Part shown: positions 2,837 through 34,811 of the stretch, piece after piece
Numbering within the stretch: the first letter of the stretch is position 1
How the letters are laid out: each line of letters starts with the position of its first letter
NCBI GenBank assembly: GCA_022775765.1
Contig: JALFKC010000070.1
Coordinates: 1 to 36,772 of the forward strand
DNA from: Campylobacter sp.
Lineage (GTDB): Bacteria; Campylobacterota; Campylobacteria; Campylobacterales; Campylobacteraceae
Length of the DNA stretch: 36,772 nucleotides
Direction: 5' to 3'
Translations under genes and position numbers: made by a program
The notes under the pieces: generated by a model
What the model was told of the DNA's origin: nothing
Database searches by the model: none
Seen by the model: only the letters and a program-made list of their open reading frames with translations

Positions 2837-4176
2837 AATAAAATAGGTGCAACCATAAATCCAAGCACAACTGAAAATGCGATAGCCAAAACGCCAGGAA
2901 TAAAAAATGGGTGGTTAAATATGTATTTTCCAATTCTTGTTGTTCCTGTGTCGTCCATTTGAACCGCTCCAAGAAGTGTTGGGTATGTTGGTAAAACAAA
3001 TAGAGCTGAAACAGCGGCAAATGAAGCTACTATGATATAGACATTGCTTGTATCAGTGGCTGATATTCCAAGAGCTACAATAACAGTTGGGATCAGTGCT
3101 TTAGCAGTGGCGGCTTGTGAGTAAAGCAAGCAGCTTGCGAAGAAAAGTGCAACTGATAGTAGTGCAGGGTATTGACTTACTAGATTGCCAGCAAAACCTT
3201 TAATCTCTTCTGTGTGATTTGATACGAAAGTATCACCAAGCCACGCAACGCCTAACACGCATATGCAAGCATTCATTCCGCTTTTGAATGTGCTAGTGGT
3301 AGTTAGTTTATCAACATCAATTTTACAACATATTACTATCAAAGAAGCTATAACCATCATAAAGCTCATTATCGCACCATCTCTTGGAAGTTTGACATTT
3401 TTTATAAGACCAAAACTAGGACTTATAACAGAAGCATATAATACAACAGCTACAACTCCCAAAATAAAAATAAGAACTGATAATTTAGCACCTTTTGGAA
3501 GCTCTTTGTATTCAGCTTCTTTTGGATCAGCAACCAAACCTTTTTTAAGTCTGTCTAAATAAACAGGGTCTTTATCAAGGTCTTGTTTCCAAAATAAGTT
3601 CATAATTAATGCTGTAATCATACAACCAACAAATGTAGTTGGTATCCAAATAGCAAGAAGTATAGGATAGCTTATTCCAAGACCGCCAAGAGCCATATCT
3701 CCAGCCATAAATACAACAGCTGCTGAAACAGGACTAGCAGTAATTGCTATTTGACTTGCAACAACTGCAATACTAAGTGGCACCGAAGGCTTTATATTTT
3801 GTCCTTTAGCGACTTCTGCGATAACTGGAATCATCGAAAATGCTGTATGTCCTGTTCCTGCTAGTATTGTTAGGAAGTATGTTACAGTTGGTGCTAAGAA
3901 ATTTATGTATTTTGGATTTTTACGCAAAATCTTCTCAGCGATCTGAACCATATAATCAAGCCCACCGGCAACTTGCATAGCTGTTATCGCTGCGATAACA
4001 GACATAATGATTAAAATAACATCCCACGGAATGCTTCCTGCTTTCATTCCAAGTCCAAGTGTTAGAATGACAACACCAAGACCTCCTGCATATCCGATCG
4101 CCATTCCACCAAGTTTAACACCTAGGAAAATAGCACCAAATAACACAATGATTTGTAAAATCAGCATGATATCCAT
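2833..4176 (-). CDS. dcuA: anaerobic C4-dicarboxylate transporter DcuA
   Basis: A 447-residue polytopic inner-membrane protein with about ten to twelve hydrophobic segments. Dcu carriers exchange fumarate, malate or aspartate for succinate. The sequence follows DcuA rather than DcuB: a GGLGVVILTL segment, IPWDVILIIMSVIAAITAMQ, AGTGHTAFSMIPVIAEVAKG, SQIAITASPVSAAVVFM, ACICVLGVAWLGDTFVSN, and QMDDTGTTRIGKYIFNHPFF. An AAGGAG Shine-Dalgarno precedes the ATG, and an extended -10 lies about 53 bases upstream. It is a single-gene unit. In Campylobacter such carriers support fumarate respiration and aspartate use; that role is from family knowledge. Confidence 0.93.
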   Translation of the reverse strand: MDIMLILQIIVLFGAIFLGVKLGGMAIGYAGGLGVVILTLGLGMKAGSIPWDVILIIMSVIAAITAMQVAGGLDYMVQIAEKILRKNPKYINFLAPTVTYFLTILAGTGHTAFSMIPVIAEVAKGQNIKPSVPLSIAVVASQIAITASPVSAAVVFMAGDMALGGLGISYPILLAIWIPTTFVGCMITALIMNLFWKQDLDKDPVYLDRLKKGLVADPKEAEYKELPKGAKLSVLIFILGVVAVVLYASVISPSFGLIKNVKLPRDGAIMSFMMVIASLIVICCKIDVDKLTTTSTFKSGMNACICVLGVAWLGDTFVSNHTEEIKGFAGNLVSQYPALLSVALFFASCLLYSQAATAKALIPTVIVALGISATDTSNVYIIVASFAAVSALFVLPTYPTLLGAVQMDDTGTTRIGKYIFNHPFFIPGVLAIAFSVVLGFMVAPILL

Positions 4177-4292: not shown

Positions 4293-4580
4293 ATATTAAC
4301 TAGATAATATTTTAAGAATTATTTTAAAAATTGTTTTATGCCAAATTTACGCTGTAATTTATTCCAAATTTATAGTTTTTTTGAAAAATTCACAAATTTT
4401 TAAAGCTATACATTAAAATTCAAGGAAATTTTATATAATTTTAGCCATTATGGATAAATTTATAAATAGCTAGTCATTTCATAATAAAAATATAATTAAA
4501 AAAATAAAATATAAAATTTAAATTTACCACTTAAGTTAGTGCTTGAGTTTTGTTTTTATAAAATTGCTAAAAATGCCAAA

Positions 4581-4612
4581 TCAAATATAGAGAATAAATT
4601 CTCTATATTTGA
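4581..4612 (-). terminator. recJ/pyrG terminator hairpin
   Basis: TCAAATATAGAGAAT (4581-4595), spacer AA, ATTCTCTATATTTGA (4598-4612): a perfect 15-bp inverted repeat beginning 13 bases after the recJ stop. On the minus strand it is followed by TTTGGCATTTTT. The stem is long but AT-rich. Confidence 0.65.
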
Positions 4613-4625
4613 TTCTTAGTTTAAC

Positions 4626-7918: not shown

Positions 7919-8920
7919 TTATAACAAAATTTCAGCGAGTTTTTTATACGAATTTATCCGTTTATCGTGGTAAAAAATCGGCGAATATGCCATAACTTCA
8001 TCGAAATTATATTTTTGTATCTCATCTTCTAAAATGCTTGCGACATACTCTTTTGTTCCTTTGATAAAAAATCTCTTGTGATATTTGTAGTTAATCATCG
8101 CTTGTTGAGCCTGAGTAAATTTAAAATCTTTCAAATTCTCTGGATCTTTTATGTAGTAAGGTTGCTCTAAGCTTAGCGACCAAAACATAAGCTCAATCGG
8201 CTTTGCTAAAAAGTCCGCTTCTTCCTTGCTATCAGCGATAACTATCATATAACTTGACATCACTTCAGGCTTATCAAAAAACTCGCTTGGGATGAAATTT
8301 CGCCTATAATTTTCAAAGACAATCGGCGGTGTTTCTACACCAAAAAACTTAGCAAAACTATATCCTAATCCCATTTTTGCTGCTGCTAGGGCTGACTGAC
8401 CTGATGAACCTAACATCCAAGGGCTAGGAAGTGAGCTAGTGTGAGTTGGGATGGCATTTACGCCCTTATAGCGTCTATCCAAAACAGGTTCATCTTTAAA
8501 ATAGGCTAAAATTTGCTCTATTTTCTCATAAAGTTCATCCATCATCACTTCTCTGCCTTCGCTTAAGGCGATTATACTTTTTGCGTCGCCACCAGGGGCT
8601 CTGCCAAGGCCGATATCAACTCTATTTGGTGCTAATGAAATCAAAGTTTTGAAATTTTCAGCGATTTTAAGTGGCGAATAGTGCATTATCATCGTCCCAC
8701 CGCTTCCAAGCCTGATTTTATCAGTGATTGCACTAAAATACGCTATCAAAAGCTCGGGCGAAGTGCTAGTGTGGGGGTTTATGTTGTGGTGTTCTGAAAA
8801 CCAATACCTACAAAAGCCTAGATTTTCGGCCACTTTTACCATATCTTTTAGCCTTGCAAAGACGCTATCTGTGCTTTCGCCTTCGTTTCTTGTAACTAAA
8901 TCGTGTATGCTTACTCTCAT
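7919..8920 (-). CDS. LLM-class flavin-dependent oxidoreductase
   Basis: 333 residues, typical of the bacterial luciferase-like TIM-barrel family that uses reduced FMN. Family blocks seen are CRYWFSEHHN (about 37-46), the TSPELLIAYFSAITDKIRLG segment with GSGG following, HYSPLKIAENFK, and NRVDIGLGRAPGGD. This is the MsnO8/YhbW-like branch with unknown substrate. An AAAGGAGA Shine-Dalgarno precedes the ATG. It lies upstream of pyrG on the same strand and divergent from the cyd operon. The specific reaction cannot be inferred from the sequence. Confidence 0.88.
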   Translation of the reverse strand: MRVSIHDLVTRNEGESTDSVFARLKDMVKVAENLGFCRYWFSEHHNINPHTSTSPELLIAYFSAITDKIRLGSGGTMIMHYSPLKIAENFKTLISLAPNRVDIGLGRAPGGDAKSIIALSEGREVMMDELYEKIEQILAYFKDEPVLDRRYKGVNAIPTHTSSLPSPWMLGSSGQSALAAAKMGLGYSFAKFFGVETPPIVFENYRRNFIPSEFFDKPEVMSSYMIVIADSKEEADFLAKPIELMFWSLSLEQPYYIKDPENLKDFKFTQAQQAMINYKYHKRFFIKGTKEYVASILEDEIQKYNFDEVMAYSPIFYHDKRINSYKKLAEILL

Positions 8921-9036
8921 TTTTTCTCCTTTAAATTTGCAATTTTACTCGAAAATTTTAAATTATTAATTCGTAAATTTAAAATAATATTAGTTATAAA
9001 AATTAAATCAATAACTTTATATTTACACAAAAATAT

Positions 9037-9042
9037 TATAAT
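9037..9042 (+). promoter_or_regulatory. promoter -10 of the DUF4492-cydAB operon
   Basis: TATAAT in ATATTATAATTTTG lies only six bases before the ATG at 9049. A start seven bases downstream would coincide with the ATG, implying a leaderless transcript. No Shine-Dalgarno is visible before 9049. Confidence 0.5.
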
Positions 9043-9048
9043 TTTGTT

Positions 9049-9261
9049 ATGTGGTTTAGAAAAATTATCCGTTTTTACATTGATGGCTTTAAAAATATGA
9101 AACTCGGCAAAACTTTATGGCTCATTATTGCTATAAAACTCGCTATTATGGTATTTGTGCTTAAATTTTTCTTTTTTAGCGAAACCATCAATACTAAATT
9201 TGACAACGAAACTGATAGGATAAATTTCATCCATAACAATCTTACAAAGGATATTAAATGA
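9049..9261 (+). CDS. DUF4492-family small membrane protein
   Basis: 70 residues: a basic amphipathic start with FYIDGFKNMKLGKTLW (residues 9-24), one membrane segment (about 25-43, ending FFFF), and a polar tail. Small proteins with a DGFKNM...GK.LW segment directly before cydA are known in Campylobacterota as DUF4492; this recognition is from memory. The stop overlaps the cydA start as ATGA. The tight coupling suggests a role in assembly or stability of the bd-type oxidase, but none is demonstrated. The start has no Shine-Dalgarno. Confidence 0.75.
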   Translation: MWFRKIIRFYIDGFKNMKLGKTLWLIIAIKLAIMVFVLKFFFFSETINTKFDNETDRINFIHNNLTKDIK

Positions 9262-10775
9262 CAGAACTCGCTTCGGTTGATTGGTCTAGAGCACAGTTTG
9301 CTTTGACTGCTCTTTATCACTTTTTGTTCGTTCCTTTAACTCTAGGACTTTCATTTATGCTCGCATTTATGGAGACTTTGTATGTTAGCACGGGTAGCGT
9401 TGAGTGGAAAAGAATAACTAAATTTTGGCTTAGACTTTTTGCTGTAAATTTCGCTATTGGCGTAGCAACTGGGATTATAATGGAGTTTGAGTTTGGCACA
9501 AACTGGGCGAATTATAGCTGGTTTGTGGGCGATATATTTGGCGCGCCTCTTGCAATAGAGGGACTTTTTGCGTTCTTTTTGGAGGCTACATTTTTTGCGG
9601 TGATGTTTTTTGGCTGGGACAGAGTTAGCAAAAAATTTCACCTTATCTCAACTTGGTGCGTTGCGATTGGGTCAAATTTGAGTGCGTTTTGGATACTCGT
9701 GGCAAATGGCTGGATGCAAAACCCAGTAGGCACCGTGTTTAACCCTGACACCGCAAGAAATGAGATGGTAAATTTCTTAGATGTAGCCTTTTCGCCAACT
9801 GCGATTAGTAAGTTTTTGCACACAGTTGGGGGTGGATATATCACTTCAGCTCTTTTTGTGCTTGGAATTAGTGCTTATTTTATGCTTAAAAACAAGCACT
9901 TTATAATGGCTAAAAAAAGCTTCATAGTTGCAGCTAGCTTTGGGCTTTTAAGTTCGCTATTTGTTCTATTTAGTGGGGATGAGAGTGCGTATCAAGTCGC
10001 TCAAAAGCAACCGATGAAATTAGCTGCGATGGAGGGGCTTTATGATGGCGAAACAAATGCTGGAATCGTAGCTTTTGGGGTGTTAAATCCTAAAAAAGAG
10101 ATTGACAATGACGAAGAACCGTTTTTATTTCAAGTAGAAGCACCATATCTTTTGGGACTTATGGCAACTAGGGGGATTAATAACTTCACACCCGGAATAA
10201 ATGATCTGATTTATGGCAATGAAGCTCACGGTATAGTCTCTGTTCAAAGCAGAATTGATAGCGGCAAAATCGCAATTAAAGCCCTTGATGATTACAAAGT
10301 GGCAAAAGATAGTGGTGACGTGGCTGGGGCTGAGAAATTTAGGGCCTTGCTAGATGAAAATATAGCAAATTTTGGCTATGGCTACTTAAGCGAGCCAAAA
10401 GACGCAATCCCGCCTATTGGATTATCATTTTATAGCTTTAGGCTGATGGTTGGACTTGGAATGTATTTTATAGTTCTATTTTTTGTAACGCTATTTTTGA
10501 GTATGGCAAATAGAGTTGAAAACTTCCCTAAAATCCTTTGGGCTTGCGTTATTAGCATACCGCTTGGATATGTGGCGTGCGAAGCTGGGTGGATAGTGGC
10601 TGAAGTGGGGCGTCAGCCGTGGGCGATACAAGATCTAATGCCTGTTGGCATTGCGGCTACAAATTTAGCCAGTTCAAATATCAAGATTTCATTTTTCTTG
10701 TTTGCGGTGCTATTTACGACGCTATTTATAGCTGAGATTAAGATAATGTTAAAGCAGATTAAGTTAGGATTTTAA
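9258..10775 (+). CDS. cydA: cytochrome bd-type quinol oxidase subunit I (CydA/CioA)
   Basis: 505 residues with about nine membrane segments. It oxidises quinol and reduces oxygen to water. H21, the equivalent of the conserved N-terminal haem ligand, lies in FALTALYHFLF. The conserved GRQPW motif is at 451-455. The quinol-binding loop is short, as in cyanide-insensitive (Cio-type) oxidases of this group, so haem d may be absent; that is family knowledge. An AAAGGA Shine-Dalgarno lies inside the DUF4492 gene. Confidence 0.95.
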   Translation: MTELASVDWSRAQFALTALYHFLFVPLTLGLSFMLAFMETLYVSTGSVEWKRITKFWLRLFAVNFAIGVATGIIMEFEFGTNWANYSWFVGDIFGAPLAIEGLFAFFLEATFFAVMFFGWDRVSKKFHLISTWCVAIGSNLSAFWILVANGWMQNPVGTVFNPDTARNEMVNFLDVAFSPTAISKFLHTVGGGYITSALFVLGISAYFMLKNKHFIMAKKSFIVAASFGLLSSLFVLFSGDESAYQVAQKQPMKLAAMEGLYDGETNAGIVAFGVLNPKKEIDNDEEPFLFQVEAPYLLGLMATRGINNFTPGINDLIYGNEAHGIVSVQSRIDSGKIAIKALDDYKVAKDSGDVAGAEKFRALLDENIANFGYGYLSEPKDAIPPIGLSFYSFRLMVGLGMYFIVLFFVTLFLSMANRVENFPKILWACVISIPLGYVACEAGWIVAEVGRQPWAIQDLMPVGIAATNLASSNIKISFFLFAVLFTTLFIAEIKIMLKQIKLGF

Positions 10776-10776
10776 A

Positions 10777-11883
10777 ATGTTTGAGATTTTACAAATTTAT
10801 TGGTGGTTTATAATAAGCTTGTTAGCTGGAATTTTTGTCTTTATGACATTTGTGCAAGGTGGTCAGACTCTGCTTTTTTGCTTCAAAGATGAGCATGAAA
10901 AGGATATGATAGTAAATTCCATCGGCAAAAAGTGGGAGCTAACTTTTACTACTTTAGTTATGTTTGGCGGAGCGTGTTTTGCGGCGTTTCCATTGTTTTA
11001 TTCGACTAGCTTTGGCGGGGCGTATTGGGTGTGGATGGCGATACTATTTTGCTTTATCATTCAAGCGGTTTCATATGAATATAGAAAAAAGCCAAACAAT
11101 TTCCTAGGTCAAAAAACTTATGAGATTTTTATGTTTATAAATGGCTCTTTGGGGCTATTTTTAATCGGCGTTGCGTTAAGCACATTTTTTAGTGGAAGTG
11201 AGTTTAGCCTTAACTCAAGGAATTTTGTCTCGTGGCAAAATCCACTTCGTGGGCTTGAGGCTCTAGGAAATCCGCTAAATTATCTGTTAGGATTTGCCCT
11301 AATTTTTGCAGCTAGGGTTGGTGGATCGCTATATCTTATAAATCACATTGATGAAGAGAGCTTAAGGGTAAAATTTAGAAAACACCTTAAATTTGACACT
11401 CTATTTTTTGTGCTGTTTTTCGTGGCATTTTTATTTTGGATATCACTAAAAGATGGTTTTTACGTGGTTGATGGGGCTGTAATGATGAAAAAATATCACT
11501 ATTTTTTAAATTTTTTGGCTAATCCTTTTATATTTATAGCTTTGATAATTGGCGTGCTTTTGGCTCTTTTTGGAATTTATAAAGGAGCTTTTAGCAAAAG
11601 CACTCACGGGATTTGGTTTTGGGGCTTTGGCGTGGTTATAGCAGTGACAGCTCTATTTTTTAGCCTTGGAATGAGTGGAAATGTGTTTTATCCATCAAGC
11701 GTGGATCTAAATAGCTCTCTGGGCATACATAACGCTAGTTCAAGCCTTTATACACTAAAAACTATGGCTTATATCTCAGTGTTTATACCATTTGTATTAG
11801 CCTATATAAGCTATGTTTGGAAGAGTATGGATAGGGTTAAGATGACTAGAGATGAGATAGAAAAAAGTGAGCATATTTACTAG
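10777..11883 (+). CDS. cydB: cytochrome bd-type quinol oxidase subunit II (CydB/CioB)
   Basis: 368 residues with about eight to nine membrane segments, starting one base after the cydA stop. CydB pairs with CydA and completes the oxidase. Typical features are the WWFIISLLAGIFVFMTFVQGG start and the central YEYRKK and AARVGGSLYL segments. The length is usual for the family. The gene is followed at nine bases by a tiny membrane-peptide gene with its own Shine-Dalgarno. Confidence 0.95.
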   Translation: MFEILQIYWWFIISLLAGIFVFMTFVQGGQTLLFCFKDEHEKDMIVNSIGKKWELTFTTLVMFGGACFAAFPLFYSTSFGGAYWVWMAILFCFIIQAVSYEYRKKPNNFLGQKTYEIFMFINGSLGLFLIGVALSTFFSGSEFSLNSRNFVSWQNPLRGLEALGNPLNYLLGFALIFAARVGGSLYLINHIDEESLRVKFRKHLKFDTLFFVLFFVAFLFWISLKDGFYVVDGAVMMKKYHYFLNFLANPFIFIALIIGVLLALFGIYKGAFSKSTHGIWFWGFGVVIAVTALFFSLGMSGNVFYPSSVDLNSSLGIHNASSSLYTLKTMAYISVFIPFVLAYISYVWKSMDRVKMTRDEIEKSEHIY

Positions 11884-28032: not shown

Positions 28033-28926
28033 TTAAGCCTTTTGCATCAAGCATACCCATTTTTTGATAGCTATCTCATAGTCGCAAAAGACATCAAAAA
28101 CATATTTTAAAGCTCTCTCTTCAGCGTCATACCATCTATTTCGCCTGATATCTAAAACAACGCCTAAAAGTAGATTTTTAAGTGGCGTTGCCATATAGCT
28201 TCCTTTTGGTATAAGGCTAGTCTCTTCCAAAGGAACTCCTAAGATTTTATTAGCCCCAGCTTCGATTAGATAAGATGGAGCATTTAGCTTACTTAACTCT
28301 TCGTTGTAATCGCTTACATCAGCAGGATTTATCAAAATCACAGTATCGCTTTTTGCATCCTCTGGCACAGCTTTAACTAAAGCTTTTAATCTATCACTTA
28401 TGGTTTCACTCTCTGCATAGGTTACTTTTGTAGTTTCACTGCTATCTTTTGCGATTTGTAGCCAACCTTTATGCAAGGTCTCAAATGTATTAGCATAGGT
28501 ATCACTGTTTCCAACAAAGCCTAAAAGTGCTAAGTCATTGCCAAAGGCTTTACTAAAAGTGTTAAATGTCTCTTCCTCAAATTTTGGATTGTGCTTATTT
28601 TCTTCTAGAGCGTCTTGTAAGATTCTAGCAAAGAGTTGCACGCTTTTAGCATCAAGTTTAGTTCCAACTAAACCTAGCTTCTTTCTTTGTTCTTCAGTTG
28701 GTTTATCGCCACTTGGAACTCTAACTAAAATTCCTTTTGCCACATCCCATGCATCTATTTCTTTGGTTAATCTTCCCATTTTTACAAGGTTTATCTTTTG
28801 TAAAAAAGAGCTATTATCTTTAACTACATCTATAAAGTTATGAGCCTGTTCTGGCGTTAGTGTGCCACTTAAGGTTGTATCAGTTGCACCCATACTTGCT
28901 TTTAAAATTTCACTTAATCCTGGCAT
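28033..28926 (-). CDS. major capsid protein, P2 gpN family
   Basis: 297 residues. The start LTPEQAHNFIDVVKDNSSFL ... INLVKMGRLTKEIDAWDVAKG and the end NLLLGVVLDIRRNRWYDAEE ... YEIAIKKWVCLMQKA fit the P2-family major capsid (HK97 fold); DIRRNRWYDAEERALKYV is typical of the C-terminal part. The start codon overlaps the end of the scaffold gene by one base. The protein forms the icosahedral shell. Confidence 0.82.
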   Translation of the reverse strand: MPGLSEILKASMGATDTTLSGTLTPEQAHNFIDVVKDNSSFLQKINLVKMGRLTKEIDAWDVAKGILVRVPSGDKPTEEQRKKLGLVGTKLDAKSVQLFARILQDALEENKHNPKFEEETFNTFSKAFGNDLALLGFVGNSDTYANTFETLHKGWLQIAKDSSETTKVTYAESETISDRLKALVKAVPEDAKSDTVILINPADVSDYNEELSKLNAPSYLIEAGANKILGVPLEETSLIPKGSYMATPLKNLLLGVVLDIRRNRWYDAEERALKYVFDVFCDYEIAIKKWVCLMQKA

Positions 28927-29663
28927 TATAAAACTCCTTTTGAAAATGTAATATCATCTTTCTTAACTTCTTTATCCTGTTTTGAAGAGTTTTTTAGCTC
29001 TTCAATGCTACTTTTAAGAGTTGCTATCTCATCTTTTAAAGCTTTAATCTCAGCTTTAAAATCTTCACTCTTATCCTCTTTTTTTACCTTATTTTCGCTC
29101 TCATCACTGCTTAAATTCTCATTTTTTACACTCTCACCCATCTTTGTCTCCTTTTTAAAATCTTTAAAAAAGCTAGTTAAACTCTCTTTAACTATCTCTG
29201 ATACACTCTTGATCTTAACAACTCCAGCCCCATACATAGAAAGTCCAGTTATCTCACCATTTTTTACCATCTCCTTTAAGTTTTCATCTTCAATCTTAAT
29301 GCCAACCGCCCACGCTCCAACTTCATCAAAAAACTCATCTTTGCTTTTTACTATCCAGCTTTCGCAAATAAAAGCGTCTGCTTCAAGCATATTGTGATTA
29401 ACATCAACTCTATACCCAGCCCCACCTTTCATAAACTCGAAAGCTGCTTTTTTTATCTCATCTTTATTAGCAAAATCTCCTTGAGCATCTACTTCGTCTG
29501 GAGCATAAACTATCCCATAAACAATGCCCTCTTCACTGCTTTTGGTGAAATTTACTCTTAAAAGCTCACTGAAATTTTCATTTTTATAGATGATAGTTTT
29601 ATTATTAGCCCCTTTGTGGACTAATGAGATGAGTTTTACTTGAAGATCTTTTATCTCAGCCAT
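28926..29663 (-). CDS. prohead protease/scaffold (XkdF-like)
   Basis: 245 residues. The N-terminal domain (about 45-145) fits the PBSX XkdF putative serine-protease family: EGIVYGIVYAPDEVDAQGDF, VDVNHN (87-92 area), ESWIVKSKD, GAWAVGIKIEDENLKE and NGEITGLSMYG. The C-terminal 80 residues are a charged coiled-coil (FKAEIKALKDEIATLKSSIE), as in scaffolds. It is likely to guide capsid assembly and be cleaved or lost. It contains an exact 15-bp prophage word at 29115-29129. It begins the minus-strand head unit, divergent from portal. Confidence 0.75.
   Translation of the reverse strand: MAEIKDLQVKLISLVHKGANNKTIIYKNENFSELLRVNFTKSSEEGIVYGIVYAPDEVDAQGDFANKDEIKKAAFEFMKGGAGYRVDVNHNMLEADAFICESWIVKSKDEFFDEVGAWAVGIKIEDENLKEMVKNGEITGLSMYGAGVVKIKSVSEIVKESLTSFFKDFKKETKMGESVKNENLSSDESENKVKKEDKSEDFKAEIKALKDEIATLKSSIEELKNSSKQDKEVKKDDITFSKGVL
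29115..29129 (-). repeat. copy of the 15-bp prophage word
   Basis: Exact GTAAAAAATGAGAAT on the minus strand within the scaffold gene, encoding VKNEN. Confidence 0.45.
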
Positions 29664-29721
29664 ATCACTCCTTTTTTAAAATCTTTTTAGACTAAAACTA
29701 AATCCTTTTAAACATTTCAAA

Positions 29722-29727
29722 AGTATA
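29722..29727 (-). promoter_or_regulatory. candidate -10 of the scaffold/capsid unit
   Basis: Minus-strand TATACT, predicting a start near 29715, about 50 bases from the centre of the dyad at 29748-29782. An AAGGAGT Shine-Dalgarno precedes the scaffold ATG. Confidence 0.45.
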
Positions 29728-29747
29728 TATATTTTTAAAAACAAAAG

Positions 29748-29782
29748 CTATCTAAATATCCATATATAGGCTATTTAGATAG
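29748..29782. promoter_or_regulatory. dyad operator between divergent packaging and head promoters
   Basis: CTATCTAAATA (29748-29758) and TATTTAGATAG (29772-29782): a perfect 11-bp inverted repeat with a 13-bp spacer that is itself nearly symmetric (TCCATATATAGGC). Its centre, near 29765, is about 48-50 bases upstream of both predicted starts, so one bound activator could serve both directions, as Ogr/Delta does near -55 in P2. Confidence 0.55.
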
Positions 29783-29800
29783 AAATTTTAAATTTTTTCG

Positions 29801-29806
29801 TATAAA
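29801..29806 (+). promoter_or_regulatory. candidate -10 of the portal/terminase unit
   Basis: TATAAA in TTCGTATAAAATG; predicted start near 29813, with a short leader holding AAAAAGGGG before the GTG at 29838. Confidence 0.45.
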
Positions 29807-29837
29807 ATGTTTTTAAAAATTAAAAAGGGGTTAAGAG

Positions 29838-30881
29838 GTGGAGTATATATTTTATAAATCATCTTCAAAACAAAAAATAGTAGAAAACGATTCAGTCATA
29901 AATAATATAATTGAGCCTTTTATTAGTTTTGATAGGCTATTAGATTTAAGCTATACAAATGTCTATCACAAAAGAGCCTTAAATCTAAAAGCTACTGTTT
30001 TATCAACTATAGATGAGACAAATTTAAATGAGTTTTTACCATCAAATATAAACGAAACTGAGTTTTTAAAAGGTTTTGTATATAATTTAGAGTTATTTGG
30101 AACTGCAGCTATTGAAAAAGCTGGAAAAATGCTATATCTTCTACCTACTCAAGAACTTAGGATTTCAAAAGATTATAAAATTTACCAAAAAACAAACTCT
30201 AAAATAACTCCACTAGATGGCTTTTATCTAAAATATCACAGCTCTAAGTCCCGCTATTATGGTGAGCCTGACTATTTAGATTGTATAAATGCTATCCTTT
30301 TAAACTCTAAAGCCGATACCTATAACAACACCTTTTTTGATAATGGTGCAAGACCTGATATAGCTATAATCTTTGAAAACTCAGAACCATCAAAAGAGCA
30401 AATTTCAGCTTTCAAAGAGTTTTTTAGCAAGGATTTTAAAGGGGTTAATAATGCTCATAAAGCCCTTCTTGTCTTTGGAAATAACGGCGTTAATGACTCT
30501 AATGCTAAAATAAGATTTGAAAAACTTGGTGGGGTAGATGATTTAAGTTTTAAAAAGCTTAAAAATGTAGTTAGAGATGAGATAGTTGCAGCTCATGGCG
30601 TGCCTCCGCGTTTAGTTGGAGTAGTGCAAGGAAATGGTCTTGGTGGAAGTGGTGAGCTAATGGGGCAACTTCATCAATTTAATGAGCTTGTCATAAAGCC
30701 TAAGATTGAGACAATTGAGTATTTTTTCAATGAAATTTTAGGCGTAAAACTAAGCTTAAAAGCTATTGATGTAACAAACTTTAAAGATGATAGCACAATT
30801 ATAACCTCTTTAGTTCAAAATGGCATAGTAAGCATTGATGAAGCAAGAGATTTGCTTGGTTGGCAAAAAAATATAGGCTAA
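29838..30881 (+). CDS. phage portal protein, PBSX/P2 gpQ family
   Basis: 347 residues, GTG start after AAAAAGGGG. Typical portal blocks are present: KRALNLKATVLSTI near the start, YYGEPDYLDCINAILLNSKA, TFFDNGARPDIAIIF, and HGVPPRLVGVVQGNGLGGSG followed by LHQFNELVIKPKIETIEYFF. The portal is the dodecameric ring through which DNA enters. It is on the plus strand with terminase, divergent from scaffold and capsid as in P2. Confidence 0.88.
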   Translation: MEYIFYKSSSKQKIVENDSVINNIIEPFISFDRLLDLSYTNVYHKRALNLKATVLSTIDETNLNEFLPSNINETEFLKGFVYNLELFGTAAIEKAGKMLYLLPTQELRISKDYKIYQKTNSKITPLDGFYLKYHSSKSRYYGEPDYLDCINAILLNSKADTYNNTFFDNGARPDIAIIFENSEPSKEQISAFKEFFSKDFKGVNNAHKALLVFGNNGVNDSNAKIRFEKLGGVDDLSFKKLKNVVRDEIVAAHGVPPRLVGVVQGNGLGGSGELMGQLHQFNELVIKPKIETIEYFFNEILGVKLSLKAIDVTNFKDDSTIITSLVQNGIVSIDEARDLLGWQKNIG

Positions 30882-30883
30882 AA

Positions 30884-32440
30884 ATGGCATACTCAAAAAA
30901 GACTAAAGATTTAATCTTAAATCTACTAAAATCAGGGCTAACTCAAAGCGAATTAGCTAAAGAGTATAAAATCAACCCTTCAACTATAAACCGCTGGGCT
31001 AAAGAGCTAAAAAATGAAGATGAAATTTTAACTATAGATAATATAAAATCTCAAATCAAAGAGCTAAGTAAAGGTAAGAGCTCTGATAGCAAAGCAAAGC
31101 AAATAGCAATGCTTAGTGCAAGTTTAGTTAGATTAGATGGTGAAAAAAAGAAAAAGGCTAAACCTAAACCAAAACCGCTTATTGCTATGAATGCTGACTA
31201 TGAGAGTTTAAAAGAAAAAGCATTAAAAGAGGGTGGGTTGTTTAACTATCAAAAAGAGTTTTTAAACGATAACTCTCAGTTTCGCATTGTTTTAAAAGCA
31301 AGGCAAATAGGCTTTTCTTATGTAAGTGGGCTAGATGCTCTTTTAGGAGCTGTTGCAGGTAGGGATCAGCTATTTTTAAGTGCTAGTGAAGAACAAGCTA
31401 GAATTTTAATGAACTATATGAGTGGTTGGGCTAAAAAACTGGGCATTTCTTTTATTAAAGATAGCGATTTTGAAAAGAGTTTAGAAAATGGTGCAGTCAT
31501 AAAAGTGATGGCTCATAACTTTAGAACCGTGCAAGGATTTAGCGGTGATATCTGGATGGATGAGTTTGCATGGTATCCAAACCAAAAGAGAATTTTTACC
31601 GTATTTGTTCCTACTATAGGTGCAATTAAAGGACGCTTAACTATCCTTTCAACCCCATTTGAAGAGCACTCTTTATTTCATGAGCTTTTTAGTGATGAGC
31701 TTAAATACTATGTCTTTAGCCGTCATAAAATCGATATCTATAAGGCGATGGAAGATGGACTAGAGTTTGACCTTGAGACGATGAAGTCTTTATTTGACGC
31801 TGATACTTGGGCTAGTTGCTATGAGTGCATTTTTATAGATGATGAGAGTGCATTAATGAGTATTGAGCTGATTAAGAGTTGCGTTGATTATAATTTCTCA
31901 TTTTTTACCCCAAAAAGCAAAGAGAGTTTATATCTTGGTTATGATATCGGTAGGATTAAGGATAGATCAGCCTTAGCTGGGATAATTACTAATAAAGATA
32001 AATTTGACCTTGCTATTTTAAACACTTACGCTAAGACTAAATTTAATGATCAGTATGATGAGATAAAAAATCATCTGTTAACTTATGAAAACTCGGTTTT
32101 AAATATAGATAAAACTGGAATTGGGCTAAATTTAGCTGAAAATTTATATGATGGCTTTGGCTCTCGCGTAAAGGGAGTATGGTTTAGTGCGGCTTCAAAA
32201 GAGCAGATGGCATTAAATCTAAAAAAACTCTTTGAAGATAAGAAAATTAGAATACCAAATGATCCTGTTTTAATCGCTGATATTCACTCAATCAAAAGAA
32301 GTGCTGGGGCTAAAAGCTTTAAGTATGATAGTCCTAGAAATGAAAACGGACACGCTGATAGGTTTTGGGCGCTAGCTTTGGCAGCTTTGCATATCCAAAG
32401 CGTAAAGGTGCTAAGAAGCGGTAAAGCAATTATTATTTAA
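30884..32440 (+). CDS. terminase large subunit (P2 gpP-like) with N-terminal HTH
   Basis: 518 residues from the ATG at 30884, two bases after the portal stop; an upstream TTG at 30860 would lie inside portal and is less likely. Residues about 16-40 (SGLTQSELAKEYKINPSTIN) form a helix-turn-helix for DNA recognition. The ATPase has a Walker A-like LKARQIGFS (137-145) and Walker B IWMDEF (223-228). The nuclease part begins LGYDIGRIKDRSALAG, with D354 as a probable metal ligand. The enzyme packages DNA into proheads. No separate small terminase gene is visible nearby. Confidence 0.87.
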   Translation: MAYSKKTKDLILNLLKSGLTQSELAKEYKINPSTINRWAKELKNEDEILTIDNIKSQIKELSKGKSSDSKAKQIAMLSASLVRLDGEKKKKAKPKPKPLIAMNADYESLKEKALKEGGLFNYQKEFLNDNSQFRIVLKARQIGFSYVSGLDALLGAVAGRDQLFLSASEEQARILMNYMSGWAKKLGISFIKDSDFEKSLENGAVIKVMAHNFRTVQGFSGDIWMDEFAWYPNQKRIFTVFVPTIGAIKGRLTILSTPFEEHSLFHELFSDELKYYVFSRHKIDIYKAMEDGLEFDLETMKSLFDADTWASCYECIFIDDESALMSIELIKSCVDYNFSFFTPKSKESLYLGYDIGRIKDRSALAGIITNKDKFDLAILNTYAKTKFNDQYDEIKNHLLTYENSVLNIDKTGIGLNLAENLYDGFGSRVKGVWFSAASKEQMALNLKKLFEDKKIRIPNDPVLIADIHSIKRSAGAKSFKYDSPRNENGHADRFWALALAALHIQSVKVLRSGKAIII

Positions 32441-32476: not shown

Positions 32477-32755
32477 TATGTAGTTTAAAGCGTCTATAAA
32501 AGAGCCTACGAATTTATGCTCTTTATGGTTAAACTCGCAAATTTCATTCATTAATGGGTCATTTTTAGCTAAGTTTAACACTTCATCTTTTACATCCATA
32601 TCAAACATTCCCATTATTTTATTTTTTTCTATGCAAAGGGTGGCAAATTTGTATTTTTCGTTTTCTTTTTTTGCATATTTGCCATTCCAAATATCATAAT
32701 TTTTAATGTTTATTTGCCACTCTATATCATTTCCACTAATTTCAAACTCTCTCAT
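32453..32755 (-). CDS. candidate immunity protein to the MuF-linked toxin
   Basis: 100 residues, acidic, single small alpha/beta domain (DIEWQINIKNYDIWNGKYAK start; FNHKEHKFVGSFIDALNYIK end). I place the start at the ATG at 32755, because it overlaps the preceding TGA as ATGA; an ATG 12 bases further upstream would have a poor Shine-Dalgarno. A small gene directly after and overlapping a MuF protein with an extra C-terminal nuclease-like domain is the position of immunity genes in polymorphic toxin systems. I recognise no named immunity family, so the role is inferred from context only. Confidence 0.55.
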   Translation of the reverse strand: MREFEISGNDIEWQINIKNYDIWNGKYAKKENEKYKFATLCIEKNKIMGMFDMDVKDEVLNLAKNDPLMNEICEFNHKEHKFVGSFIDALNYIKKNFTKE

Positions 32756-33918
32756 ATCTCCCACCATGCCTTTATAATTTCTTGTTCCAAGACAAAAGCG
32801 TTATCGCTAAAATAATCTTTTCTTTTTGGTTTAAAAACAGTTATAATTCTATTGCCGTCAAAAACAAAAAAATATCCGTTTTGACTGATTGCTACACTTC
32901 TGTTTTTCTCTCCCTTTTTAGGTGCTGTTTTGACAATTGAATTTAACCCTTTTATAATGCCTTGCTTTGTTATTTCTCCGCTTTTAAGTCTTTGCTTTAA
33001 ATTATGCTCTCCATCTACTGCCTTTAAGTCCAAAACTCTCTCAACTCCCATCTTATCGATATGTTTTATCACCTCTTTACTACCCAGCTCACTCGTCATA
33101 TTCATCTTTACGCCATCATATTCATATTCTTTGGCATAAACCGGAACTATCATAGTTCTGCAGTGGAAGTGGTATGGCGGTAAGCCAAAGTTTTTAGGTA
33201 GTTTATCGCTTCTTCCGTTGTATGCCTTGCTAGCCCAAATAGCGGCGTTTTTCTTTTCACTCATATTTTTTGCATTTAGTAGTTTTTTAGCCTGAGCGTC
33301 TAAATGCTCTACTGGTATAAGGCGTCCGTGCATACTTCTACAAATTTCACTGGTTCTACTATCCATTCTAGCTACAACTTTAAAGTATTTTACAGTCTGG
33401 CTTCTATCTAAAATGGCAGTTAAATTTCTATTTTGGTTAATGATATTATCAGCCACGCCTTCAAAGTAACTCTCACTTCCTTTTAGGGTAGAGTTTAATT
33501 CACTTTTTAATCTATCAGCTAAATCTTTTCTAGCTAGTTTTCCACTCATTACATCCTTAACTGCATTTTTTACTCTATCTTGCAGATTTGAGTTATACTC
33601 ATTTCTTAGCCAGTAAAAGCTATCATCGATTAGTTTTATAGCCTCTTCATCTAAATTATCAAAGCCAACTTTTACTCTGCTATCAAGTTTTTTGCGGTTT
33701 AGCTTAAAAGACACTGCAAGGCTTTCCTTATCTATTTTATGCTCTTTTATACCAAGAGTGGCTATTTTTGAGTTTAAAAGAGCTAAAAAACTCTTCTCAT
33801 CTAAACCAAAATTTTCATAAGCAAAAACTATCAGTTCGTTAAAGCTCTCTTTTATATCTTTAATGCAACTTATTGCAAATTTAGCCACTATCTCATCTAT
33901 AAACTCATCTAAACTCAT
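32752..33918 (-). CDS. MuF head morphogenesis protein with C-terminal BECR-like toxin domain
   Basis: 388 residues from the ATG at 33918, chosen because AAAAGG lies five bases before it; an ATG at 33981 would give 409 residues but lacks a Shine-Dalgarno and overlaps the previous gene. The MuF domain shows DSRTSEICRSMHGRLIPVEH (about 186-205) and GLPPYHFHCRTMIVPVY (about 245-261). After a linker, the last ~110 residues (GEHNLKQRLKSGEITKQGII with H305, then RSVAISQNGYFFVFDGNRII and TVFKP) fit the barnase/EndoU/colicin E5/RelE-like (BECR) nuclease pattern of MuF polymorphic toxins. The toxin would be injected or released with the virion; the downstream gene may protect the lysogen. Confidence 0.7.
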   Translation of the reverse strand: MSLDEFIDEIVAKFAISCIKDIKESFNELIVFAYENFGLDEKSFLALLNSKIATLGIKEHKIDKESLAVSFKLNRKKLDSRVKVGFDNLDEEAIKLIDDSFYWLRNEYNSNLQDRVKNAVKDVMSGKLARKDLADRLKSELNSTLKGSESYFEGVADNIINQNRNLTAILDRSQTVKYFKVVARMDSRTSEICRSMHGRLIPVEHLDAQAKKLLNAKNMSEKKNAAIWASKAYNGRSDKLPKNFGLPPYHFHCRTMIVPVYAKEYEYDGVKMNMTSELGSKEVIKHIDKMGVERVLDLKAVDGEHNLKQRLKSGEITKQGIIKGLNSIVKTAPKKGEKNRSVAISQNGYFFVFDGNRIITVFKPKRKDYFSDNAFVLEQEIIKAWWEI

Positions 33919-33958
33919 TTTAGCCTTTTTTTGCTTAATTAGACTTTTTAAGATACCA

Positions 33959-34126
33959 CTATTTGACTTTAAAATTCTCATTTTTTACATCTTTTTCAAA
34001 TTTTATTTTTTCAGTAGTGTGAAATATGCATCCACACCTCTCACACTTCCTAACTCTTATAACTTCAAAGCTTTTTATGGTTGCTACTACTTTGGTTTTT
34101 TCATTTAAGCATTTAGGGCAAATCAT
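33959..34126 (-). CDS. Ogr/Delta-like zinc-ribbon protein, candidate late activator
   Basis: 55 residues. It reads MICPKCLNEKTKVVATIKSF, then EVIRVRKCERCGCIFHTTEK and a basic tail. Two CxxC pairs (C3/C6 and C28/C31, with C33 nearby) can bind zinc; the CPxC ... R..KC..CGxxFxTxE order resembles the 72-residue P2 Ogr and P4 Delta late activators and also the N-terminus of NrdR. An AGGA Shine-Dalgarno precedes the ATG. It sits between gemA and MuF. The P2-like divergent head region with a dyad supports the Ogr reading; Mu Com-like function is an alternative. Confidence 0.6.
   Translation of the reverse strand: MICPKCLNEKTKVVATIKSFEVIRVRKCERCGCIFHTTEKIKFEKDVKNENFKVK
33974..33988 (-). repeat. copy of the 15-bp prophage word
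   Basis: Exact GTAAAAAATGAGAAT on the minus strand near the end of the zinc-ribbon gene, encoding VKNEN there. Confidence 0.45.
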
Positions 34127-34128
34127 TT

Positions 34129-34593
34129 TTATTTCCTATAAAATTTACACATTTTTTCTAAGCCTGTTATAGCTTTTTTAGCATCACTTGAAAGGATATT
34201 TTTAAGTTGGCTCTCTAGTCTTATAATTATACTGCACTGCTTAGCTACCCATCTTACAAGCCTTTCATCGCTAAAATTTAGTCTTTTTGCTAGGCTTTTT
34301 AAGTAGTTATATTGAGACAAAGTTATCTTTTTATCATCTTTTTTAACTAGCTTAGAGTTTTTAACTAAATTTCTACCTAAAATATCAGGCTCACTCTTTT
34401 TGAAATCTCCATTTATTAGCATATCAAGGGCTAGTTTTAACTCATTTATGCTTAAATTTGCAGATGAACTAACTCCAAATCTTATCTCAAGCCACATCTC
34501 CCAAGCATCGTTTTCCCTTAAGAGTTTATACTCACTATTTAGATGAATTCTCTTAAGTAAGTTGTTTCTTAAAACTCTTTGTTTCTCAGTCAT
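34129..34593 (-). CDS. gemA: GemA-like regulatory protein (Mu gp16 family)
   Basis: 154 residues from the ATG at 34593, which overlaps the previous stop as ATGA and has AAAGGGG just upstream. The C-terminal block KITLSQYNYLKSLAKRLNFS ... LVRWVAKQCSII, and WEMWLEIRFGVSSSANLS near the start, match the GemA/DUF1018 family of Mu-like phages. Mu GemA alters host gene expression and DNA topology; the exact activity here is unknown. It supports assignment of the early region to a transposable phage. Confidence 0.8.
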   Translation of the reverse strand: MTEKQRVLRNNLLKRIHLNSEYKLLRENDAWEMWLEIRFGVSSSANLSINELKLALDMLINGDFKKSEPDILGRNLVKNSKLVKKDDKKITLSQYNYLKSLAKRLNFSDERLVRWVAKQCSIIIRLESQLKNILSSDAKKAITGLEKMCKFYRK

Positions 34594-34811
34594 ATTAGCC
34601 CCTTTTTCCATAGCTCACTAGCTAAAATAGCTCTACTTATACCAGCACAACGACTCATCTTAGATATATTTATTCGCCCGTTTTTAAACCTGTAAAAGTC
34701 TAAGTCATAATTTAAAGCATTATCTAGCCTTGCTTTAAATTTAGCCTTTTTACGCTCATGTAATAGCTCAAGATGAATTCTTTGCTTAGTGCTCATTTTA
34801 CTTTTTATCAT
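34590..34811 (-). CDS. small basic phage protein, possible DNA-binding
   Basis: 73 residues, strongly basic. The N-terminal half is helical (TKQRIHLELLHERKKAKFKA), and the C-terminal RINISKMSRCAGISRAILAS has the spacing of a helix-turn-helix. AAGG lies seven bases before the ATG. It is translationally coupled to gemA by ATGA. It is not assigned to a family; a small regulator is plausible. Confidence 0.5.
   Translation of the reverse strand: MIKSKMSTKQRIHLELLHERKKAKFKARLDNALNYDLDFYRFKNGRINISKMSRCAGISRAILASELWKKGLI

Follow-up and report, generated by a model that had tools for sequence, protein, structure and literature searches.

A divergent late-gene gap in a Mu-like prophage

How are two late operons that face away from each other switched on? 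The question is raised by a prophage in a 36,772-nucleotide Campylobacteraceae contig (the window, by which we mean the whole stretch of DNA analysed), with the prophage running from position ~13.3 kb to the right end of the contig. A 174-bp gap separates its leftward-transcribed protease and capsid genes from its rightward-transcribed portal and terminase genes. The initial annotation had read the left operon as scaffold and capsid, and its first gene is indeed of the Peptidase_S78_2 protease/scaffold type (PF14550), followed by the capsid gene; Mu-type early genes had also been proposed, and GemA and DUF3164 are both present. The genes relevant here are as follows.

28926..29663, − strand: protease/scaffold-type head protein, which opens the leftward late operon (Peptidase_S78_2, PF14550, 4e-28; phrog_3017)
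28033..28926, − strand: P2-type major capsid protein (phrog_1623, 6e-68; PF05125, 8e-6, just under the cut-off)
29838..30881, + strand: portal protein, which opens the rightward late operon; start codon GTG (PF04860, 3e-27)
30860..32440, + strand: terminase large subunit (PF03237, PF17289)
32752..33981, − strand: Mu F-like head protein, after the ribbon gene at the end of the early-side operon (PF04233, 5e-5, below the cut-off; phrog_115)
33959..34126, − strand: 55-aa zinc ribbon of the NrdR type, encoded immediately downstream of gemA; candidate late activator (PF22811, 3e-6)
34129..34611, − strand: GemA homologue, an early gene of the Mu type, next upstream of the ribbon gene (PF06252, 1e-6)

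Upstream of gemA, positions 34590-34811 (− strand) code for a small conserved HTH-like protein that is found in many ribbon prophages and in one prophage carrying Mor. The same genome holds a second ribbon-bearing Mu-like prophage (G000:C82, 14000-25891; L079), which has a Mu-type transposase, gemA (66% identity), and DUF3164 (86% identity).

Within the gap lies an 11-bp dyad, whose arms are exact inverse complements separated by a 13-base spacer and centred at 29765. Putative −10 boxes flank it, and the transcription starts predicted from these boxes each lie 50 bases from the dyad centre, in agreement with the ~48-50 bases from both starts first proposed for a perfect 11-bp dyad.

29748..29758, no strand: left arm of the dyad, CTATCTAAATA
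29772..29782, no strand: right arm of the dyad, TATTTAGATAG
29722..29727, − strand: predicted −10 box TATACT of the protease/capsid operon, predicted +1 at 29715
29803..29808, + strand: predicted −10 box TAAAAT of the portal/terminase operon, predicted +1 at 29815

Taken singly, the dyad is modestly unlikely (p ~0.03 against shuffles of the gap), and exact 11-bp inverted repeats occur at ~6 other places in the window, as might be expected of a chance palindrome in AT-rich intergenic DNA. However, its position, sequence and spacing are kept in many phages, including two from an independent scan, and this conservation rules chance out. The dyad stands above chance because it is conserved: with a matrix trained without the window, the best and the second-best sites of all 36,772 bases (copies 1 and 2 below, respectively) both fall within it. 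Elsewhere in the window, a perfect 17-bp inverted repeat with a 2-base loop (4579-4614), between two host genes, is probably a hairpin.

Two overlapping sites at −46

When ~17 distinct prophages are compared, the dyad proves to be a pair of overlapping copies of an 18/19-bp site, CTAWATA-N4/5-TATWTAG, the centres of which are 8.5 bases apart and which together build the larger dyad.

29752..29769, + strand: site copy 1, 18-mer CTAAATA-TCCA-TATATAG, centre 29760.5, 45.5 bases to the left-hand start
29760..29778, − strand: site copy 2, 19-mer CTAAATA-GCCTA-TATATGG, centre 29769, 46 bases to the right-hand start

The site is likewise doubled in G042, G019, G075, and G068, with copies 9 bases apart; most relatives have a single site copy common to both promoters, arranged −46/−46. 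In phage after phage, and on both sides, the predicted start is 46.0 bases from the centre of the 19-mer (45.5 for the 18-mer). With 17 gaps pooled to give 34 flanks, TATAAT matches of at least 5/6 peak at exactly 46 bases (20/34 flanks), the next best distance accounting for 4/34. The geometry is −46 per site copy, and not the −55 near which Ogr binds in P2.

This geometry also bears on the sign of the regulation. The element could be an operator through which a phage repressor or a host factor represses the late promoters, given that palindromes are common repressor operators and that NrdR, whose ribbon is the closest relative of the phage ribbon, is a repressor. We consider this quite improbable, since the site precedes each −10 box at a constant −46, in the region bound by activators like Mor (PMC4390567), overlaps neither −10 box nor start, and tracks an early-operon gene that replaces a known activator.

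Conservation of the element with two types of head genes

Of 153 host-family genomes, 19 contain the portal gene, and nearly all portal-bearing copies have the divergent protease/portal gap; G009 has none, and a flagellin-like host gene lies upstream of its portal gene. When 12 distinct gaps were aligned, a single conserved block emerged, CTAAATA...TATTTAG, along with a conserved portal-side −10 box. A search for the dyad at late promoters of related phages had been proposed as a check at the outset, and the element is kept in many related prophages.

A half-site matrix, which superseded a first loose motif scan (many spacings and thousands of matches), was trained on the sites of prophages with P2-type heads and then tried on ribbon prophages that have Mu-type heads and had been located via the ribbon gene alone. 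These test prophages have a Mu-type protease and head genes and, across the gap, a small terminase-like gene and a terminase gene. For zG056, zG049a, zG062, zG088, zG096, and zG108, no site in the entire 20 kb scores higher than the one in the divergent late gap, and the same holds for zG069; in zG066, despite the ribbon, the site is weak (p=0.04). Sites from prophages with Mu-type heads include CACTCTAAATAGCGGTTATTTAGAGTG and TTTCACTCTATATACCGCATATATAGAGTGAAA.

Scanning IMG/VR (2.9 million viral contigs) for the extended palindrome identified three matching contigs, two of them phages not previously seen. All three matches adjoin an I-type protease gene, with −10 boxes at exactly 46 bases on both sides (5 and 5, 6 and 4, and 5 and 5 of 6 positions matched on the two sides of each contig). 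In L149, one of the new phages, the terminase genes are located elsewhere, and what lies across the gap from the protease gene can therefore vary.

Several ribbon contigs stop short of the late gap, and these neither support nor contradict the pattern. G002 has the site, with no ribbon or gemA nearby; this prophage looks truncated, with a cut MuF gene next to a CRISPR-like array. The array (~8000-11430 of locus L039) has a repeat that translates as FANDNVCVET and apparently runs into the truncated MuF gene, and the prophage has lost its early operon. G017b and G070 were given little weight because both look decayed. In the G070 prophage (G070:C17, L054), one zinc-ligand cysteine of the ribbon gene (43232-43363 of the contig) is changed to tyrosine and the protease gene is frameshifted; the late dyad is intact.

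A zinc ribbon in the place of Mor

The ribbon gene lies directly after gemA in the window, as it does in most of the ribbon prophages for which a gemA was found. This slot is occupied by either the ribbon or Mor (PF08765), and both never occur in one prophage examined, although some genomes hold one ribbon prophage and one Mor prophage; no Mor was found in the genome of the window. Mor prophages with mappable late genes have their protease and terminase genes in one direction, with no divergent layout. Sites flanked by a −10 box on each side number seven in the ribbon set and none in the Mor set (392 kb including controls); mG100 and mG024 are GemA controls, with Mor recognised in mG024 by an iterated profile and none in mG100.

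The element might instead bind another phage regulator, such as GemA or an unrecognised early activator, for example the HTH-like protein encoded at 34590-34811, with the ribbon only a neighbour. Both g345 and gemA share that operon and occur widely in these prophages, but gemA is found equally in Mor prophages, which are without the element, and g345 is present in the Mor prophage mG024 and was not found in the element-bearing ribbon prophages G053, G139, zG056, and zG108. NDT, like g345, is shared with Mor prophages, and MuF goes with a single head type; the ribbon is the one screened family that fits both head types and is absent from Mor prophages, and it alone tracks the element across both. 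Another phage regulator is thus an unlikely binder, and the zinc-ribbon protein is, as first suggested, the best candidate activator.

The ribbon goes with the early module, and not with the P2-type heads. Ribbon distances correlate with site distances (Mantel r=0.34, p=0.003), including for pairs across head types (r=0.26, p=0.046); this correlation is weak and in part reflects shared ancestry. Host NrdR is disfavoured as the binder, since NrdR-type ribbons over the cut-off in 41 genomes are at phage loci only, except for one locus in G073 (a 72-aa frame).

An NrdR-type ribbon

The window protein has 55 aa and is a ribbon only, without an ATP-cone domain; it is the shortest of its family, lacking the C-terminal part of its relatives. 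It scores 27.3 bits against PF22811 (cut-off 27.2), a family matched by 27/27 ribbon relatives. Its best PDB matches by sequence are NrdR proteins, and so are all 13 best PDB matches to the fold of the predicted model (rmsd ~0.8-1.7), which has pLDDT >90 over the ribbon. The ribbon is of the NrdR type by Pfam, PDB sequence search, and fold. In alignments, its cysteines are spaced C3-X2-C6-X21-C28-X2-C31 (i.e., CX2C-X21-CX2C), and the NrdR specificity residues D15 and R17 are not kept.

The initial annotation had likened this protein to P2 Ogr. The 55-residue zinc-ribbon ORF exists (33959-34126, − strand), but it is not of the Ogr family. The protein has no match to Ogr_Delta (PF04606) at E<=1, 0/153 family genomes match PF04606, and 6/27 ribbon relatives match it weakly (best 0.048). 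The Ogr cysteine motif is CX2CX22CX4C (PMC3931495), a different spacing, and no TGT-N12-ACA sequence is present in the window gap; on these three grounds we rejected membership in Ogr/Delta. Profile comparison with 11 Ogr proteins shows a remote similarity (hhalign 95%), and Ogr is at most a distant relative of the ribbon.

Comparison with P2 and Mu

In P2, a single activator site is annotated (3057-3087), at 56 bases from the P start and 55 from the O start, and the layout of the window is P2-like because this one Ogr site (−55/−56) is shared between the same gene pair. In both, one site serves two divergent late promoters (PP and PO in P2), terminase/portal on one side and scaffold-protease/capsid on the other, and it is equidistant from them, at 50/50 from predicted starts in the window and 56/55 from annotated starts in P2. 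The activator is a small C4 zinc protein in P2, and so is the candidate activator in the window. The same sharing of one site by divergent late promoters has been reported for the P2-like phage Smp131 (PMC3931495). Unlike in P2, the element is a CTAWATA dyad and not TGT-N12-ACA, each copy is at −46 and not −55/−56, and the regulator gene is next to gemA, whereas that of P2 comes after D; the ribbon, with its CX2C-X21-CX2C cysteines, also differs from Ogr in lying outside Ogr_Delta.

A P2-type late switch with an Ogr-like activator had been proposed, and in this reading it would have been acquired together with the P2-type head genes. What stands of this is the divergent layout, with the same gene pair around one shared element as in P2, and the remote similarity of the ribbon to Ogr. 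There is, however, neither an Ogr member nor an Ogr-type site, the distance is not that of P2, and the tie to P2-type heads fails, with the same element serving Mu-type heads and the ribbon gene in the Mor slot. We regard an acquired Ogr switch as very improbable.

Mu offers a second comparison. As with Mu Mor/C (PF08765), the regulator gene directly follows gemA in the early operon, and the inverted-repeat site is just upstream of the −10 box; the Mor site is at −43.5 at the middle promoter Pm (PMC4390567), and that of the window phage at −46. Unlike Mor/C, the candidate regulator is a zinc ribbon and not a Mor fold, and one element serves two divergent operons. The NrdR zinc ribbon (PF22811) is closest in sequence and fold, but the phage protein differs from NrdR in the missing ATP-cone and in D15/R17, and in being a proposed activator and not a repressor of ribonucleotide reductase. 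The layout is thus that of P2, the gene slot and distance are those of Mu Mor, and the protein is an NrdR ribbon without the ATP-cone; we file the switch under none of the Ogr, Mor, and NrdR families. By analogy, it would work like P2 Ogr at the shared O/P site and Mu Mor/C near −43. Phage late activators that act at one site shared by divergent promoters are already known, and the system proposed for the window differs from these in regulator and site.

A proposed late-gene switch

The element, its spacing, and its link to the ribbon are established at the level of sequence, and the element is most likely the binding site of the small zinc protein of the phage. We think it likely that the dyad controls a late-gene switch in which the ribbon, in the place of Mor, activates both late operons. 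The 55-aa ribbon would be a product of the early operon, its gene placed like that of Mu Mor, and a ribbon dimer would bind the element, one ribbon per half-site. A dimer on inverted half-sites is suggested by likeness to NrdR, the ribbons of which bind palindromic NrdR boxes in pairs (PMC9110341). The bound ribbon may contact or recruit the host sigma-70 polymerase from −46 to both promoters, and the protease/capsid/tail genes and the portal/terminase genes would then switch on together, after the early genes.

More broadly, we somewhat favour the idea that a stand-alone NrdR-type ribbon has replaced Mor as activator in a large group of transposable phages in the Campylobacter family, switching on two divergent late operons from a −46/−46 dyad that is doubled in some, the window phage among them, to give each promoter an overlapping copy of its own. 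The NrdR ribbon domain is known from a repressor, and in the literature that we searched, nothing turned up on NrdR-like activators in phages or on the late promoters of this group.

For the Mu-like prophages of the Campylobacter family, whose late promoters are described in none of the papers found, the proposal provides a concrete late-gene switch. It would place three small regulators, Ogr, Mor, and the NrdR ribbon, in one role, and it suggests that a 55-residue zinc ribbon may suffice as a complete activator. The extended motif, together with the 46-base spacing, locates late promoters in unannotated phages.
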